Positions 28,680-44,868 of a stretch of DNA of 64,000 nt are shown one piece after another. The DNA is from Gammaproteobacteria bacterium (GTDB lineage Bacteria > Pseudomonadota > Gammaproteobacteria > DSM-16500): positions 310,001-374,000 of the forward strand of contig JACDDU010000002.1 of NCBI GenBank assembly GCA_013816845.1, in the 5' to 3' direction. Each line of letters starts with the position of its first letter. Position 1 is the stretch's first letter. The translations under genes and the position numbers were made by a program. The notes under the pieces were generated by a model, which saw nothing but the letters and a program-made list of their open reading frames with translations, was not told where the DNA came from and ran no database searches.

Positions 28680-31442
28680 ATGCTGCAATTTAATGTGCCC
28701 CTTGATGAATGGAAGATCGCTCACCGTTATTTAGACCATCGCCCAGATGGAAGTAAATTACCCTATTCATTTTATCAAGATAAAAATAACAGCCTAACCG
28801 CTAGAATGGAGTCAATACCTTCTACTTCGTACCAAACAACGCATTCTTTTATTAAAATAAACGGCACTATTTATGCCCTAGCGCAGGGGAGTGATTCAAC
28901 CATCCATTTTGGTAGCATTGGAAAAGTTAAGTATGCAAAAAGTGAAGATAACACATCTTTAATTATCAAAGTGGGTAAGCGGGAAAGCGAGGATCGGGTC
29001 GAAGCAGAAATATTAAATGATTTATATCTTTCTGCAGGCGCGAATAAGCGAATATATAATTTGTCTTCAACCGGTGGGGACAATAACTCACTATTTGATT
29101 CGAAATTTTACACAACTATTGAATATTTAGGCTCGAATATTAATCAATTTATTAATATTCATCCATACAATTTAACTGCTGAACGACGATTAGAAATAGC
29201 CATTCAAATCTGTTGGCAACTTTATCGATTACATACGGGACTTGCCTCTGTAACGCATACGCCTTATGCGCATTTGGATTTAAAGTTAGATAATGTAACG
29301 ATTGATGAAGCAGGTCATGTTCATCTCATTGACTTTGGATTCTCTAAGAAATTTCCCAAAAAATTAGGGAAAAGTGCAACGGGTGCGACGGCCTACGTGG
29401 CAAATGAAATAAGTGGTCATCCCTTAACTTTAGAGCAGTACGATATCATTGCCCTAAAGCGTATATTATACATGCCAGAAGCATTTTATTGTAAAAGTGG
29501 TTTTATACGTTTACCTGCAATTTTAAGGCCAGCAAGTATCTTGACTGAAGCGCAATTAATCAAGACAAAACTCGATCCCTACATTAATACCTATGCCATT
29601 CTTAATTCACCACCAGACTCAAGCACGGATGAAACTAATGCGGTCATGCTTTGTGCCTTATTAATTGCAGCGAAACTTAATCTTAGTATGTCATATGAGC
29701 AAATACGAAATGACAAAGAAATAACACTTGCAATCACCGCTTTGTATTTTGCCGGACGACAAAAGGAGATAGAAAAATATTTGCGCGACACTAACGCCAT
29801 TAAATTAATAGCAGCCCTTAATACGACAAACAAAATTTTCTTGTTGGATGCTTATAAAGATGATGAAGCGCTTAAGGCAGTTATTAAAGTAGCTTCTACA
29901 CATGAGATGGTGTGTGCCATGCTCTATCTGAAAGATTTACATTTAGAACAATATTACCAAAGGGTCATTAAAGATCCTTCTTTAGCGAAAGCAATTACCA
30001 TATTTGGCGCACAGAATTTAAATGAATACATCCTGTCGTTACTTGATGATAAAAATGAAAGTCTCGTTAAAATGACTTTACTTTTAGAAAGCAATTATAT
30101 AGAAAACTATTACTTGTCGCTTATCATGAACCCCATCTTATGTTCTGCGCTTGCTACCATCCAGAATCAAGATACACTTAAAACGCTGATTGACTTGGTG
30201 CGGTCAAATACATATTCCTACCATGATTTGCTGAAAGTCTGTGAAAGTAAAAAACTGGTTGAAGCAGTTACTATTATTTCAACATTATCAATTTTATATA
30301 ATAATTTATCTTATAAGATTCTCATCGATTATCCCGATAGTGCAGATGCAATTATTAACTGTTATCACATCAATATGGATGATTTTAAATTAGCCGAGAT
30401 AATTGCCTCCCCTGTTTTATGTAAGGCGATTAATATTTTGCTTAAAGCAGGCGTCAATCATAAAAAGGAATTAGGTAAAATTATATTTAATGCTGAGATG
30501 CGTGATATCATTTTGCAATTACATTCACTGAAAATGGAAAAATTTTATACCCAAATTTTATCAAATAATATTTTCTTTTATCAACTGTCACAAATCATGA
30601 ATTATAAATTTAAGGATGGACTTACTGAAGAAATGCTGGCTGACGACACGCTTAGAGCTGTGTTATATGCGCTTGGTAATAATCAACAACGCTTTCAAGG
30701 CTTTATCATTTTATATGAAAACGGACGGCTCGATAAGCAAGCCTATGCATCATTTAACGATTCATATTATTTTTATCAAACTATTGCTTTGCTTAAAGAG
30801 AAAAATCTTACGCATTGGTTTGAAGTTTTAATTAACAATCCTGCTTTGGCGACGCCCTTTTATGATCTGGTTTCACATAAGGATATGGACACTGCTTCAG
30901 GATGCTACGTCTCTTACGTTCTTACTCAGTTACCCCCGAAAGACCGGTTTTTATTTATTACCGATATATTGAATGAAAGGCAATTAAAAGAATTGCGAAG
31001 TAATTATTCTGCTTATTGGCGAACCATTAAGTCGCAATTAAACAGTGACGAAAGAGTAGCGTTAGAAAAGTTAATATTCACTCCAGATGACCTTGCAGCA
31101 AAAGGCGCTTTAAGAAATATTAAAGATGCAATCAAAAAAACACAGTGGTCATTTGGCTTGTTTGAAAGCCGTGTTAACATGAAGTTAGGCTCAGAAGTGT
31201 TTTTCGTTCCGCAAGGTGTATCGAAACAAATTCATGAGATTTTTGAGGTTTCTGACAAAACCAAATCACATACTGAAGCACTTAACCAAATTAAAAAAAT
31301 CGGTCAACAGGAAAGTGAAAAGTTAAAAGGCATCACTGCTAATTTAAAATATTTTTCCATTAATAAAACGTCTACCGAAAAATATTTTGATAAGTTTGCA
31401 AGTGATGAATCTTTCAAACAAGCTTTTGTTTTAAATAAATAA
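28680..31442 (+). CDS. Eukaryotic-type protein kinase domain protein, 920 aa (effector candidate)
   Basis: Residues about 70-250 form a degenerate protein kinase domain: IHFGSIGKVKYAKS (glycine loop), LIIKVGKRESEDRVEAEIL (VAIK Lys and the C-helix Glu), YTTIEYLGSNINQFI (hinge), AHLDLKLDNVTIDEAG with His198 and Asp200 (HRD replaced by HLD), and HLIDFGFSKKF with Asp218 (DFG). Residues 320-900 are long helical repeats without a recognised family; HLEQYYQRVIKDPSLAKAI-like units (xxYY..LI.NP.L..A) recur with diverged spacing. AGGAG precedes the start. No signal peptide or membrane segment. Large kinases with helical tails are typical translocated effectors in Legionellales; secretion is inference. 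Confidence 0.82.
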   Translation: MLQFNVPLDEWKIAHRYLDHRPDGSKLPYSFYQDKNNSLTARMESIPSTSYQTTHSFIKINGTIYALAQGSDSTIHFGSIGKVKYAKSEDNTSLIIKVGKRESEDRVEAEILNDLYLSAGANKRIYNLSSTGGDNNSLFDSKFYTTIEYLGSNINQFINIHPYNLTAERRLEIAIQICWQLYRLHTGLASVTHTPYAHLDLKLDNVTIDEAGHVHLIDFGFSKKFPKKLGKSATGATAYVANEISGHPLTLEQYDIIALKRILYMPEAFYCKSGFIRLPAILRPASILTEAQLIKTKLDPYINTYAILNSPPDSSTDETNAVMLCALLIAAKLNLSMSYEQIRNDKEITLAITALYFAGRQKEIEKYLRDTNAIKLIAALNTTNKIFLLDAYKDDEALKAVIKVASTHEMVCAMLYLKDLHLEQYYQRVIKDPSLAKAITIFGAQNLNEYILSLLDDKNESLVKMTLLLESNYIENYYLSLIMNPILCSALATIQNQDTLKTLIDLVRSNTYSYHDLLKVCESKKLVEAVTIISTLSILYNNLSYKILIDYPDSADAIINCYHINMDDFKLAEIIASPVLCKAINILLKAGVNHKKELGKIIFNAEMRDIILQLHSLKMEKFYTQILSNNIFFYQLSQIMNYKFKDGLTEEMLADDTLRAVLYALGNNQQRFQGFIILYENGRLDKQAYASFNDSYYFYQTIALLKEKNLTHWFEVLINNPALATPFYDLVSHKDMDTASGCYVSYVLTQLPPKDRFLFITDILNERQLKELRSNYSAYWRTIKSQLNSDERVALEKLIFTPDDLAAKGALRNIKDAIKKTQWSFGLFESRVNMKLGSEVFFVPQGVSKQIHEIFEVSDKTKSHTEALNQIKKIGQQESEKLKGITANLKYFSINKTSTEKYFDKFASDESFKQAFVLNK

Positions 31443-35273: not shown

Positions 35274-36458
35274 TTACGTTGTCAATGACATTCGCGTGGA
35301 GTGATTGAATTGATCTGCGGCATGAATAACTTTCTGACACATTTCAAATACGCGAGCATGATGGGCACTTTTATGATCAATCATCTTTTGTATTTCCATA
35401 CATAACATCAAAGGCGTGCTATCCATTCGGTCCGTATCACGATCCAGACATTCAAGTTGCGGATTGGCTCCCTTCGCTAAAAGATATTCAATAAATTTGA
35501 TTTGCTGGTCTGCATCATTCCTCATGGTTTCTAAGGCTAGATGTAAGGGGGAAGGGTATAAAGAATTGAATGTATTGTAGAGAGGGTTTTTACTTTGCAT
35601 TTTAGAAGTTATCTTAACATCAACTAAGTTTACATCGGCACCCATCTCAATTAAATTTTTGGCTTTTTCGTATTGTCCATTTTCAATTGCAATATGTAAC
35701 AAGGAGCAGCCATCCTTTTTTGCCAATTTTACTTGCGCAAGCGCAGGCTGTTTGTGCAAGATTAAATTAAAAAAATCATTATTGATAATGCTACACATCG
35801 ATGCCAGCAGGGATAAAATAGCTTGAGCAAGCAGGTTATATTTTTTGGGCTCAAAATCAATATTATCACCGATAAGTTCTTTAAAGCGATCTATTGTGAT
35901 TGGATCCAAAGGTAGCTTATGAGAGCCCATCACAAAACCTAAACGTTTATGTGAACTGATAAAAGTGAGTAAATCAATTGCGTCCTGCGTTAACGTACCA
36001 GGCAATAGGGAGAGTACACTCGATAAAGCTATCTGAAAACAATGATTTAAAGCATCCAAGTTATTATTTAAATTATAAGTTGTAGCAATTTTTTGTAAAA
36101 CACTGTAGTCAGGTTCAGGGCTATATTCTCCAACTTCATTTTTTATTCTTTCTAAAACCTCATCGCGATTTGAAGTTAGTTTAAATATTTTATTGAGGAG
36201 GGCATGCTCAAGCCATTTGTTAAGCAAATATTTTTTTGCTGCGGTGAGTTTAGCAAAATAGTTTCTTGCACTTTCATCTAAAGGGGGATTCGATAAAAAT
36301 TGTTTCTGCAAAATGGGTTGCCATAGCGTCGGTTTCTTTGCGAGATTTTGAAACTTTTTGTTAACCCTTTCTAGCAAGACTAAGTTATGGATCGGAAGAA
36401 GAGAAAAAATTGTCATGTAAATGTCATTTGGTAATAGATCAAAAGGAGACTGCGGCAT
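35274..36458 (-). CDS. F-box and ankyrin-repeat protein (AnkB-like effector candidate)
   Basis: A 394-residue protein with two eukaryotic domains. Residues 4-45 form an F-box (FDLLPNDIYMTIFSLLPIHN, then LLERVNKKFQNLAKKPTLW with the closing Trp), the motif by which F-box proteins bind Skp1 in SCF ubiquitin ligases. Residues 245-370 carry ankyrin repeats: GCSLLHIAIENGQYEKAKNL, IEMGADVNLVD, PSPLHLALETMRND, FIEYLLAKGANPQLEC and DSTPLMLCMEI. This is the layout of Legionella AnkB, which recruits host ubiquitination. No CaaX box is present at the end (RMSLTT). Host targeting is inference from the domains. It is convergent with the ATP-grasp gene. Confidence 0.87.
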   Translation of the reverse strand: MPQSPFDLLPNDIYMTIFSLLPIHNLVLLERVNKKFQNLAKKPTLWQPILQKQFLSNPPLDESARNYFAKLTAAKKYLLNKWLEHALLNKIFKLTSNRDEVLERIKNEVGEYSPEPDYSVLQKIATTYNLNNNLDALNHCFQIALSSVLSLLPGTLTQDAIDLLTFISSHKRLGFVMGSHKLPLDPITIDRFKELIGDNIDFEPKKYNLLAQAILSLLASMCSIINNDFFNLILHKQPALAQVKLAKKDGCSLLHIAIENGQYEKAKNLIEMGADVNLVDVKITSKMQSKNPLYNTFNSLYPSPLHLALETMRNDADQQIKFIEYLLAKGANPQLECLDRDTDRMDSTPLMLCMEIQKMIDHKSAHHARVFEMCQKVIHAADQFNHSTRMSLTT

Positions 36459-40506: not shown

Positions 40507-40905
40507 TTAAGTGTTGATAAATTTGGTAAGTGCCTTATGAACTAAATCATTATAAACTTCTCGCCGCGCAATTGAATGAAGCTCAATAATTTTTGCTGAC
40601 AAAACTAGTGTAGGCTCAGAATTTACACCCGCAGCTAAATCATAGATAACATCCTGGGGGTATCCCGTGTAACTCGCTAAACCCTCAAGCGAGTATTCGT
40701 TGTTAATTAAAAGATCGTTTACTAACTTACTAATTGTTAAACTACTTATCATAGAATTCTCCACTGAACCATGCTCATGGCACCATACTGTTAACTCTTG
40801 ATAGAGGTAAATAAAAAAAACTAGCTCCAGCAAAAGGATTTCCTTTTTTGATAAATTAATAATGTAAGGCCTAAATAAACTTAATAATAGATCCGTTGAT
40901 GCCAT
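40507..40905 (-). CDS. Hypothetical protein, paralogue of 9970-10395
   Basis: Unknown 132-residue protein starting at the ATG at 40905, with AAAGGA upstream; the open frame continues to 41088 without support, and only the shorter form aligns with the paralogue. Shared positions include MASTDLLLSLFRPY against MSATQPFYTLFKDTY at the start, KLVNDLLINNEYSLEGLASYTG against LIINDILASTHYNLMGIAVY, and the HTH-like YPQDVIYDLAAGVNSEPT against TPEEVITDIIIGCNTQPS. It is divergent from 41157-42530 and two genes away from the borosin-like locus. A regulatory role is possible on the basis of the HTH-like rhythm. Confidence 0.7.
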   Translation of the reverse strand: MASTDLLLSLFRPYIINLSKKEILLLELVFFIYLYQELTVWCHEHGSVENSMISSLTISKLVNDLLINNEYSLEGLASYTGYPQDVIYDLAAGVNSEPTLVLSAKIIELHSIARREVYNDLVHKALTKFINT

Positions 40906-41156
40906 ATATGTTCCTTTTTTGGTTAAAATCCACCGATATTTACTTTGAAATAATTTGATCTTTCTTAGCGTGCTGTTCATAACTTGTTGCATAATTCTAG
41001 ATACGGCAACGTAAGTGAGTATAAAACCATTGATATCATTTATTTTATACCTGATAATTCTTTGCATTTTTTTATCAGTATTTTTCATCGTAAATTTTTT
41101 AGCAAAAAAAATACTATAAAATTATTAACTACAATCTTTAGATCAAAAGGAAAATA
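40906..41156. promoter_or_regulatory. Divergent promoter region
   Basis: A 250-bp AT-rich region between two divergent genes. It holds an open extension of the minus-strand frame that I regard as non-coding. TATAAAATTATTAACT at 41113-41128 is a possible -10 region for the plus-strand gene. Confidence 0.35.
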
Positions 41157-42530
41157 ATGACTACCGATACTAATTATGAGACGGGTCTAGTCAAGGTTTA
41201 TTGGGAAAATATACGACACAGAGTCGCGAAGGTTGAGCCATTCCTTGCCAAGCTGATAGATGAATTAACTCCTGATTCAAGCTTACCATTATATTTAGCA
41301 TATTATCCCTATGGGGCGAATGATGCTGATACTCAAAGTTCACTTTTTCCAATGGATAAAGGTTTTTATCGGATAACGGATGTTTGTGCGCCCAAGGATA
41401 TTGTTAAAAATCTTGGATATAGTATTAATAGTACGCCTTTAGGAATGGTTCTTGATAAAGAATTAGAGTGTTATATTGACTTAAAAGATCAGGGTATTAC
41501 TTTGCCTTGGCTAATTTACACACCTGGGAAAGTATTTCCTTTCTCGAGAATTTTAAATCAAAAAAGCCAACGTATTTATGAACCCAATGGTTTACTTTCC
41601 TCAACAGCTGGTGCTAGATCTGTTTTTATGTTGCCTAATATTGGTTCCGCAATTAATCATTCTAATTTACAGCGCGATTTTAATCTTAAATGCCATTCTC
41701 CCAAGTCCTTGTATGAACACTGGCATGTATTTAAAGAAATTGTAAATAGCAAAGTTGTTAATTCCGATTGGCGTTGCTGCGTAATGTATTTTGCTGAAAA
41801 ATGGGTTACTAAAATTCATAATGATAAATCGTGGTCACGGCTCAAGCAGTATTTACATGAGTTAGCTTGGCATCAATATCAGTATGAACGAAATCGTATT
41901 TATTATGATATTACTTTCTCTATGATTCAAAAAAAACGCAACTTAAAGCCTAACCCATATTTAGCTGATACCGCACGTCATCTATTTGCAACCGCTCTAG
42001 GGGCAGCACCTGGATATGTACCTGCAATAAATAATGAATCTTTACCTTATCAATTATTACAGAACATATTCGTTTCCTCATATGGACTTAAAAAATATTT
42101 TCCTACGATAATGAAGCCGTCTCATTATTGTTTTGAAACTGATAATTTTCCCATTTATTATTCGTTACAAAACCCCTCTACACATGTGTTTTCCCCGAAG
42201 TCAAGAGAGGTCTCCAGTACTTTGTCTGAAATGCGTGAATTACAGCATATTATGCGTATTTTTTTGGATGAATTATCTCAAAACGATAGCGTGTGTCGAG
42301 ATACAATTATTGGAAAAGTTGCTCAAGAAGTACAATTTCAATACTTTCATAATAAAGTTGACCGTCATGGTGTTATCAATTCGTCAGAGCAACTGGAAAA
42401 AATTGATCGCAGATTTAATAAAAACCACCATAAGTTTAAAAATAGTGGTGCAAAATTTGCTAGTGACGCCCCTTTTGTAAGAGGGTGTATAAGTATTAGT
42501 AGAATTAGAAAAAAAAATAATAATAATTAA
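41157..42530 (+). CDS. Hypothetical protein, 457 aa, next to the borosin-like locus
   Basis: Not recognised. AAAGGA precedes the start. The protein is soluble and basic, rich in aromatic residues. Conserved-looking blocks are LYLAYYPYGANDADTQSSLF, RSVFMLPNIGSAINHSNLQ, LKQYLHELAWHQYQYER, ATALGAAPGYVPAINNESLP, YGLKKYFPTIMKPSHYCF, and FPIYYSLQNPSTHVFSPKSR. The last three read like a compact enzymatic or nucleic-acid-related domain, but I cannot name it. The gene runs towards the methyltransferase and their stops touch (42530 and 42527 overlap by four bases), an arrangement that tends to be kept when genes travel together. It could be part of the cluster or an unrelated neighbour. Confidence 0.6.
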   Translation: MTTDTNYETGLVKVYWENIRHRVAKVEPFLAKLIDELTPDSSLPLYLAYYPYGANDADTQSSLFPMDKGFYRITDVCAPKDIVKNLGYSINSTPLGMVLDKELECYIDLKDQGITLPWLIYTPGKVFPFSRILNQKSQRIYEPNGLLSSTAGARSVFMLPNIGSAINHSNLQRDFNLKCHSPKSLYEHWHVFKEIVNSKVVNSDWRCCVMYFAEKWVTKIHNDKSWSRLKQYLHELAWHQYQYERNRIYYDITFSMIQKKRNLKPNPYLADTARHLFATALGAAPGYVPAINNESLPYQLLQNIFVSSYGLKKYFPTIMKPSHYCFETDNFPIYYSLQNPSTHVFSPKSREVSSTLSEMRELQHIMRIFLDELSQNDSVCRDTIIGKVAQEVQFQYFHNKVDRHGVINSSEQLEKIDRRFNKNHHKFKNSGAKFASDAPFVRGCISISRIRKKNNNN

Positions 42531-43303
42531 ATTAAATTCAATGCTTTAGCTATTGGATAATCATAGGGTGTTTTAGGTAATGGTGGAAAATACAGGGTTG
42601 AAATACTTGTGAGTTTAATTTTAGCTAATTCCCGCAATGTATAAGTTTCTATTTTTGGGGCAAATCCTGGATATTGTGCTGCTTCGTATAATATAATTTT
42701 ATGCGCTGATTCGTAATATGTCCTCAAATAATTGTATAATAGTTTAATTCCGATCTCGTTATTAAAATATTCAGGATTATTTACTGCGCCTATCACATCT
42801 GCTTGCCACAAAATAAGATGGCTACATGGATCAAATTTTCGACGATAAATAAGAAAATCAGTGGCTTCAAAAGATTGCTTTCCACATGAGCTAGGGTCAA
42901 TTAATAGATCGGCAAAAAGACAATCTTCTGTAGAGACTCCTGGTAAAATCCTTACATCATAACCTTCTTTTTTTGCCAAACATGCAGCATCTAATCCAGG
43001 CTTAGCAAAAACTGTAGGATGGCCATAAAATACAACACAAACATGACTACCTTTTCGCACTTTTTCTAAAATAAAATTGGTGATAGCTTCATAACATTCA
43101 ATTCGAAGCTGAAACTTTTTATATAAATCATCTAGTGATTCTGAATTAAAATTAGTTTTTTGAATCCATTCTTTCATAAGAGGCTCATTCACTAGATAAA
43201 GAACATGATCTGCCTGTTTAATATAAGCTTTTGTCTCCATTGTCATGTGCGACAAAAATTTAATACCTGAGCCAACCAATACTAAGGAGTTTTTCTTATT
43301 CAT
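42527..43303 (-). CDS. Borosin-type peptide backbone alpha-N-methyltransferase (split, SonM/OphMA-like)
   Basis: A 258-residue SAM-dependent enzyme of the tetrapyrrole-methylase fold. It opens with SLVLVGSGIKFLSHMTMETK. The features are those of borosin enzymes, not of cobalamin methylases: SLDDLYKKFQLRIECYEAI provides Tyr61, Arg67 and Tyr71, matching the catalytic Tyr66-Arg72-Tyr76 of OphMA; VVFYGHPTVFAKP (Tyr93) and GYDVRILPGVSTEDCLFADL plus LLIDPSSCGKQSFEATDFL follow OphMA almost position for position. Known members methylate backbone amides of a peptide; in split systems the peptide is a separate protein. The 62-codon gene 26 bases upstream is the likely substrate. GGTGAAG precedes the start. 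No precursor domain is fused at the C-terminus, consistent with a trans-acting enzyme. Confidence 0.92.
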   Translation of the reverse strand: MNKKNSLVLVGSGIKFLSHMTMETKAYIKQADHVLYLVNEPLMKEWIQKTNFNSESLDDLYKKFQLRIECYEAITNFILEKVRKGSHVCVVFYGHPTVFAKPGLDAACLAKKEGYDVRILPGVSTEDCLFADLLIDPSSCGKQSFEATDFLIYRRKFDPCSHLILWQADVIGAVNNPEYFNNEIGIKLLYNYLRTYYESAHKIILYEAAQYPGFAPKIETYTLRELAKIKLTSISTLYFPPLPKTPYDYPIAKALNLI

Positions 43304-43329
43304 ACTTCACCCAAATACTAAATATGCGT

Positions 43330-43518
43330 TTATATTTGAAAAATAGTAGATCGGTCCGCCAATGGCCCCTTTTGATTTAGTAGTTTTTTTAAGCTATTAC
43401 TATCATTCGTTAAGAAGGATATTTGAATTTCTTTAGGTTGAGTTTTAATTAGATCTAGTAATTCAATACGATAATGAGCATTGACTGCCAAATATTCGAG
43501 CAATTTTATAGTATCCAT
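43330..43518 (-). CDS. Putative split-borosin precursor peptide, 62 aa
   Basis: A short protein directly upstream of, and on the same strand as, the borosin-type methyltransferase (26-base gap), with AGAAGG before its ATG. Residues 3-50 look like the helical borosin-binding domain of precursors such as SonA: TIKLLEYLAVNAHYRIELLD, LIKTQPKEI, then NDSNSLKKLLNQ, i.e. LLxxLA followed by a Leu-rich pair of helices and an acidic turn. The last dozen residues (GPLADRSTIFQI) would hold the core, with STIFQI giving small, beta-branched and aromatic side chains as in known cores. Assignment rests on context and pattern; no protease site is visible. Confidence 0.78.
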   Translation of the reverse strand: MDTIKLLEYLAVNAHYRIELLDLIKTQPKEIQISFLTNDSNSLKKLLNQKGPLADRSTIFQI

Positions 43519-43608
43519 AGAACCTTCTATCGCACAAATTGAGTTTAATATCTTATAATTAAATTTAATTCAAATCTACTTTGTAAAATTTATTAATATT
43601 TAATAAAT

Positions 43609-44868
43609 TCAAAACTTAGTTGATGTGACCGTTAAGCACTTAGAAGAGTTAACACTGATTTTTTGGTAAATTATACAAATGATAAAACATATACTTCCAA
43701 GTGTGCCACAAAAATACCATAAGATATTTCCACCCCAAACCTGGTAAATTAAGCTTCCCAATGAGGGAGCTATGACTCGACTACTTGCATAAACTGCCCT
43801 GTAAAGACCCATTGCTTTCCCTTTTTTATTTGCCTCGCCTGCTTGGTAACAAATAAGTTGGGAAAGTGAGCAAAAAAGCATCTCGCCTACGGTGTAAATG
43901 ATACAAGAAAGAATAGTAATCCAAAATAGATGGGAAAAATTTAATACAACCATCCCAACCCCAATGAAAAAAGCTCCCATACCCATGAGCAATATATTGT
44001 TGAATTTAGCGAGCCATCCCACTAGCGGTGTTTGTAAAAAAACGACCATTAAACAATTAATGGTAAATAGGATGCTTAAAGCTTGGAGTCCGAAATTCGG
44101 GAAGGTATCTTGCAGATATTGAGAGTAGGTGGTATTGGTTTGAAAAATAATGAAACCCATTAGAAATGAACAAAGCAACGCTAATAGAATAATTATAGGA
44201 ATGTTGTTACCATGTAGATTATTACCTTTGGTTGTAAACTTCATATTTTTTGTCCGGGAAGTATTAATCTTATCCTCTTGAATGATTGCAAAGTAAATAG
44301 CCGATAAAAATATAAAAATACTGCCCACAATAAATATTATTTGAAAGTGATAGCCCACTAAAAAACCCATTATGATGGCTGAAATAGCCAATCCCATATT
44401 TGATGCGACATTTAAAATATTGAGGGCTCTTAATTTTTGTTTTTGATCTGAACCACATTTTTCTAAAACCCATAAGTGGTTTGCAGTTAGAAATGTGTAA
44501 GAAAAAAAACCCATCAGCAACATCTCTAATGATAGCAAATAAGAAGATTTTATTTTTACTAATAACAAGAATACAATTGCTTGTAATAATAAGCTAAAAA
44601 TACAAATCTTAGTCGAGGTGAATATGTCTGATAGCTTTCCTCCTATAAATCCACCAGCAATTGTTCCAAAGCCATAAAATGAAATGATAAAACCCGCGGA
44701 TATGAGGTTGAATTTGAGTTCTTGAATAAAGTAAATGGGTAGAAAATAGTAAATACCGATAAAGATAGACTCAATAAAACTTAAAAAAATTCCATGCCAA
44801 GCTAGCTTTTGTAATCCTGTATAATTGGCCCAATAGGTTTTGGTTATTTGTAGTACATATGTGTTCAT
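43609..44868 (-). CDS. MFS transporter, candidate exporter of the borosin-like product
   Basis: A 419-residue inner membrane protein with twelve predicted membrane segments. The loop GGFIGGKLSDIFTSTKICIF (GxLsDrxGrr-like motif A between segments 2 and 3) and the central cytoplasmic loop near residues 200-220 are typical of DHA1-type drug/metabolite exporters; GWLAKFNNILLMGMGAFFIG is the second-half counterpart. It is on the same strand as the precursor gene and ends 90 bases before it, so the order is transporter, precursor, methyltransferase. Export of the methylated peptide is plausible from position alone. No Shine-Dalgarno is obvious. Confidence 0.85.
   Translation of the reverse strand: MNTYVLQITKTYWANYTGLQKLAWHGIFLSFIESIFIGIYYFLPIYFIQELKFNLISAGFIISFYGFGTIAGGFIGGKLSDIFTSTKICIFSLLLQAIVFLLLVKIKSSYLLSLEMLLMGFFSYTFLTANHLWVLEKCGSDQKQKLRALNILNVASNMGLAISAIIMGFLVGYHFQIIFIVGSIFIFLSAIYFAIIQEDKINTSRTKNMKFTTKGNNLHGNNIPIIILLALLCSFLMGFIIFQTNTTYSQYLQDTFPNFGLQALSILFTINCLMVVFLQTPLVGWLAKFNNILLMGMGAFFIGVGMVVLNFSHLFWITILSCIIYTVGEMLFCSLSQLICYQAGEANKKGKAMGLYRAVYASSRVIAPSLGSLIYQVWGGNILWYFCGTLGSICFIICIIYQKISVNSSKCLTVTSTKF

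Follow-up and report, generated by a model that had tools for sequence, protein, structure and literature searches.

Split borosin systems, in which an alpha-N-methyltransferase and its precursor peptide come from separate genes, are known in bacteria and have been divided into types IV–X (PMC11285071, PMC11395268). In SonM–SonA two enzymes associate with two precursors, L63 and I65 are methylated in the N-to-C direction, and Y58, R67, Y71 and Y93 of SonM have been examined by mutation (PMC8429565). The borosin enzymes that have been tested modify mainly hydrophobic residues (PMC11285071), and 'class 4' comprises split borosins without a recognised binding domain (PMC11395268). Here we analyse a 64,000-nucleotide stretch of the gammaproteobacterial contig JACDDU010000002.1 (the window), which very probably encodes such a pair: a precursor peptide of 62 residues and, from its own gene, an enzyme of the SonM/OphMA family, with methylation of the peptide backbone as the predicted chemistry. 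A sequence-only reading of the window had already proposed a split borosin; that proposal is supported and very likely right, but it was incomplete, lacking the core sequence, the transporter and the partner gene described below. Coordinates are positions in the window, and residue numbers are those of its proteins unless another protein is named.

The enzyme matches SonM (3.7e-49), OphMA (5.8e-48), dbOphM (4.6e-47) and MroMA1 (1.2e-44) over the whole length when compared with the PDB by phmmer. Borosin enzymes make up 25 of the 27 PDB sequences at E <= 0.01, all at 1.2e-44 or better, and the other two are cobalt-precorrin-4 methylase (CbiF, 6e-4 and 9e-4). Identity to SonM is 36.6% over 254 columns; Tyr61, Arg67, Tyr71 and Tyr93 align with SonM Tyr58, Arg67, Tyr71 and Tyr93, and the loop from Tyr61 to Arg67 is three residues shorter than its SonM counterpart (the side-clamp loop). 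In OphMA the acting residues are presumably Tyr66, Arg72 and Tyr76. A search of 5.8 billion proteins with the enzyme gave 1828 matches at E <= 0.001, 120 of which were listed; Tyr61, Arg67, Tyr71, Tyr93 and GHP are invariant in all 33 aligned homologs chosen from these 120, and the motifs LPGVSTEDCLFADL and IDPSS...EATDFL are present in the enzyme, as the sequence-only reading had stated. Pfam recognises only the fold (PF00590, 62.3 bits), and no NCBIfam model comes near its cut-off (52.6 of 525; 29.2 of 185). By these sequence comparisons the enzyme belongs to the borosin alpha-N-methyltransferases, not to the corrinoid or sirohaem methylases, which agrees with its first assignment. A fused precursor was considered and rejected, again as first read, since the enzyme stops at residue 258 without an extension.

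The small gene lies 26 bases upstream of the enzyme gene on the same strand, and both frames, together with the ribosome-binding site credited to the small gene, hold on re-examination (Table 1); GGGTG stands 4 bases ahead of the enzyme ATG. Twelve relatives have a gene for 62 residues at the same position and with the same tail (at L082 and L089, given a suitable choice of start codon). Mean pairwise identity among the 13 precursors is 91.4% in residues 54–60, 52.4% in residues 1–36 and 33.1% in the linker (residues 49–53); between the window precursor and the other 12 the values are 83.3%, 35.2% and 23.3% respectively. A54, T58, I59 and F60 are invariant (13/13), and D55 and R56 are kept in 12/13. 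Pooled over pairs, synonymous divergence (pS) is 0.364 and replacement divergence (pN) 0.046 in codons 54–60, against 0.594 and 0.309 in codons 1–53. Per site, synonymous change exceeds replacement change in the tail, which is therefore selected as protein. These conserved residues are predicted to be unstructured and follow the last helix; we infer that they form the core, C-terminal to the leader.

A chance open reading frame (ORF) was rejected because the homologous gene with the same tail occurs in the 12 relatives. One rule for a small ORF before the enzyme finds one at all 86 loci of the enzyme clade described below, although that of L001 is plainly the end of another gene, at 13 of the 23 loci outside the clade, and at 54 of 135 transporter or partner gene starts used as controls. 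Since the same rule so often finds ORFs at controls, the reality of the small gene rests on homology, not on presence. Distant clade members end in different short tails built on a similar plan (SDMSHVIPYSDMSHVFP, QPDSNKIV, FADMSRVV, FTDTTKVV and ACETHVV). Many of the QPDSNKIV tails contain a second, similar motif, and similar core motifs are also found in paralogous clades, sometimes in tandem. The pattern [DHN]x[STN][KHTR][VI][VIFAT] occurs in 62 of the 82 distinct precursors from 85 clade loci (L001 left out; shuffled mean 1.3), and twice or more in 19 of them; having been fitted post hoc to the precursors counted, it describes them and is not a test. No recognisable precursor was found at the L001 locus. 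At L070:2639-2821 a small ORF upstream of a clade enzyme has an unusual repeat end (AIAQPNQFAIAQPNMLAITQPNQ) unlike the other cores.

The model of the leader, of low to middling confidence, resembles the SonA binding domain (1.8 Å over 46 residues). SonA is not among the matches up to E 10 in sequence and profile searches of the PDB with the precursor. Residues 28–60 of the window precursor, core included, line up with the SonA-like precursor of L059 (E 0.039, a weak match), and that precursor has in turn a sequence match to SonA (best 7.7e-5). A search of a large protein set with the A3 leader profile gave 17 proteins, too few for core statistics.

To follow the distribution of the enzyme, a set of genomes, one for each species, was scanned with alignment A1, which gave 61 loci; more were added from whole genomes, for a total of 111 distinct enzymes at 109 loci. 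An earlier scan of genome contigs with the single enzyme protein as query had given no matches. SonM and 108 of the 111 enzymes make up the 109 rows of the tree; L009 (510 residues) and one of the two enzymes at each of L019 and L058 are left out, and L009 is counted among the 23 outside loci in the gene tallies below. The window enzyme belongs to a clade of 86 rows (support 100/99); SonM is among the 23 rows outside it. Clade members are Legionella, Coxiellaceae, and unnamed and unclassified gammaproteobacterial loci, with Legionella and Coxiellaceae dominant. Where the window sits within the clade is poorly resolved; of the loci retrieved, L001 has the closest enzyme. Among 143 genomes from the order of genome G002, which holds L002 (uncultured Legionella sp.), an enzyme match is found in 49, in some only as decayed pieces. 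The most copies are in G019, with four full-length enzymes and pieces of a fifth. Only partial or decayed borosin methyltransferase matches are seen in G028, G066, G071 and G145, which suggests gain and loss of the enzyme. A catalase-like gene of the window has relatives of 64–69% identity in 13 of the 143 genomes and any match in 60; this and the make-up of the clade bear out the earlier suggestion of a Legionellales-like genome.

Two further families recur around the enzyme when ORFs within 6 kb of it are clustered. A transporter of the major facilitator superfamily (MFS) or the proton-dependent oligopeptide transporter (POT) family is present at 76 of the 86 clade loci, and a partner gene (~440 residues) at 75 of 86; neither is found at the 23 outside loci, some of whose contigs are short. 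Transporter type was assigned by profile at few loci (MFS in the window and L001, POT at L156). Among the 11 clade loci seemingly without the partner, a genome search finds it within ~3 kb at L089, L092, L094 and L100, where it had been missed because the retrieved stretch was too short; the sequence ends within 1 kb of the enzyme at L041 and L073, and L116 has a partner fragment. The window MFS protein is 36–45% identical over ~400 residues to cassette MFS proteins among the 16 matches listed (two of them the same place). Gene order is variable: the MFS gene lies upstream in the window, 90 bases before the precursor gene on the same strand, and between enzyme and partner in the nearest Legionella relatives. 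The partner gene of the window is convergent with the enzyme gene, and their 3' ends overlap by 4 bases. At L057 two ORFs of 199 and 200 residues, 813–2017 bases after the enzyme start, stand in place of a single MFS gene, possibly as a broken copy.

Table 1. Positions in the window of the predicted borosin locus and its companion genes.
Feature	Position	Strand	Evidence
Precursor peptide gene, 62 residues (with stop)	43330..43518	-	12 homologs at corresponding place
Leader, residues 1–49, predicted four-helix borosin-binding-domain-like fold	43372..43518	-	
Predicted core, residues 54–60 (ADRSTIF); tail runs on with QI to residue 62	43339..43359	-	
Ribosome-binding-site-like AGAAGG, 4 bases before precursor ATG	43523..43528	-	sequence
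Borosin-type alpha-N-methyltransferase, 258 residues	42527..43303	-	PDB phmmer; PF00590 62.3 bits
MFS transporter, 419 residues, candidate exporter	43609..44868	-	PF07690 2.3e-32
Conserved partner, 457 residues, predicted beta-roll like a cyclic-nucleotide-binding domain (CNBD) in first ~240 residues	41157..42530	+	

Distances within each family follow those of the enzyme, with Mantel r of 0.925 for the partner (65 loci), 0.905 for MFS (42), 0.960 for POT (30) and 0.922 for the precursor (85), and 0 of 2000 shuffles reached the observed r in any family; the comparison was run without an unrelated control gene, so it speaks for joint inheritance, not function. Across the 143 genomes, enzyme and partner occur together in 48, the enzyme only in 1, the partner only in 7 (55 with partner in all) and neither in 87, a few of the matches being fragments (Fisher 3e-29 for co-occurrence, uncorrected for kinship).

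The partner is assigned to no family by sequence, giving only weak sub-threshold Pfam matches and nothing at E <= 0.001 in BFVD (best, a phage Crp-like protein, 0.023). Its N-terminal part has a predicted CNBD-like fold, and its best structural neighbours are cyclic-nucleotide-binding domains. Distant copies stand beside YcaO/TfuA genes, and others at loci without a methyltransferase; none is found in the stretch surrounding the copies at L152–L155, L158 and L159 (6 of the 20 loci retrieved). At L142:1864-10651 genes for YcaO, TfuA, ThiF-like, ThiS-like and ATP-grasp proteins and a POT symporter lie beside a distant partner paralog. This group is a candidate peptide-modifying cluster, with look-alikes among L143–L151. 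The copies beside YcaO/TfuA genes indicate that the role of the partner is probably not tied to methylation. Because of these copies and of those at loci without a methyltransferase, we tentatively prefer a protein of the cytoplasm that senses modified peptides or protects the cell against them, a role that falls somewhat short of probable and is the weakest step of the analysis. A leader peptidase or a borosin tailoring enzyme, in place of a sensor or immunity protein, is possible but rather doubtful. In its favour, the cassette contains no other recognised protease, Asp417 never varies and His398 and Cys444 hardly do across 49 rows, and partner distances follow those of the enzyme; against it, the nearest structures are cyclic-nucleotide-binding domains, and no methyltransferase surrounds the partner copies at the six loci named above.

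For the pair itself, a real borosin-type enzyme whose true substrate is encoded elsewhere, the 62-residue product being a regulatory or antitoxin-like protein, is quite improbable. The precursor does lack a sequence match to SonA, and at L001 the enzyme stands without a recognisable one; yet the distances of the precursor follow those of the enzyme, conservation is highest in the disordered C-terminal tail, the part in which borosin cores are found, the fitted core motif is repeated in 19 of 82 distinct precursors and the leader model resembles SonA. An ordinary tetrapyrrole methylase, of the corrin or sirohaem kind, beside an incidental small ORF, a view that can draw on the common PF00590 fold and on weak NCBIfam matches to YabN, CobA/CysG and CbiH types, is extremely improbable and close to refuted, given that solved borosin enzymes lie ahead of CbiF by ~45 orders of magnitude in E-value, that the NCBIfam scores are far below cut-off and that the small gene is conserved together with the enzyme.

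In the split borosin pair that we favour, an enzyme dimer would bind two precursors through their helical leaders, by analogy with SonM–SonA. The core (LADRSTIFQI) would enter the active site, and S-adenosylmethionine would serve to methylate backbone nitrogens from N to C, with one or two hydrophobic positions near Ile59 and Phe60 as the probable sites. Counting on from the SonA superposition would place the sites slightly earlier, at residues 56–58. A host protease would free the core, and the MFS transporter would export it.

A wider proposal, speculative and on balance unlikely, is that Legionella and its kin run several peptide communication systems in parallel. A genome would have as many as four full-length borosin loci, each the source of a backbone-methylated peptide with a near-fixed core; MFS or POT transporters would move these peptides, and a new family of CNBD-like receptors, common to them and to YcaO/TfuA-modified peptides, would read or neutralise them in the cytoplasm. 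If true, one receptor or immunity family would be common to two chemistries of ribosomally synthesized and post-translationally modified peptides, and bacterial borosins would have a biological role. The conserved core, the several copies per genome and the two companion families give a concrete handle on function, and raise the question of which selective force holds a single short tail fixed in many species. Should the partner recognise the product, it would be a receptor or immunity protein, and the distant copies that accompany YcaO/TfuA genes could serve to mark additional peptide clusters in these bacteria.

Next to the partner gene is a 193-residue ORF (40507-41088, minus strand) with no family at cut-off in Pfam and NCBIfam scans; a relative (32.5%, 1.5e-14) lies beside the L001 cassette. 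Promoter-like sites number 13 against a chance mean of 13.7, that is, chance level, and the same scan found no terminator-like site; searches of the window for tRNA genes and for Rfam families at gathering score gave nothing. By eye, the window also encodes an F-box and ankyrin-like protein (35274-36458, minus strand) and a 920-residue protein-kinase-like protein (28680-31442, plus strand), both of types seen in host-associated Legionellales.

No paper joining borosin and Legionella was found in the collection of papers searched, and large mining surveys may list Legionella enzymes. In the split-borosin literature compared, with the primary mining papers outside the comparison, recurring transporter and partner companions and a conserved, sometimes tandem core were not found described. 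YcaO–TfuA thioamidation clusters include a distant partner copy and a POT transporter (L142), but their chemistry differs and the stretches retrieved contain no borosin enzyme. Paralogous 61-residue Legionella precursors (e.g. L010) that the A3 leader profile does not match at E 0.01 recall 'class 4', whereas the window precursor has a predicted binding-domain-like leader. OphMA, a fused fungal borosin, has the enzyme domain and the Tyr-Arg-Tyr arrangement in common with the window, where the precursor is unfused and the system bacterial. SonM/SonA (split, type IV, Shewanella oneidensis) shares with the window a discrete ~260-residue methyltransferase, identical in its catalytic residues, and an adjacent gene for a short precursor, with a helical leader and then a short core (both predicted in the window). 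The window differs from it in an enzyme of 36.6% identity that falls in a separate clade, in a precursor of 62 residues against about 75 in SonA, in a leader unrecognisable by sequence, in a side-clamp loop three residues shorter, and in the transporter and partner genes that recur around the window-type enzyme.
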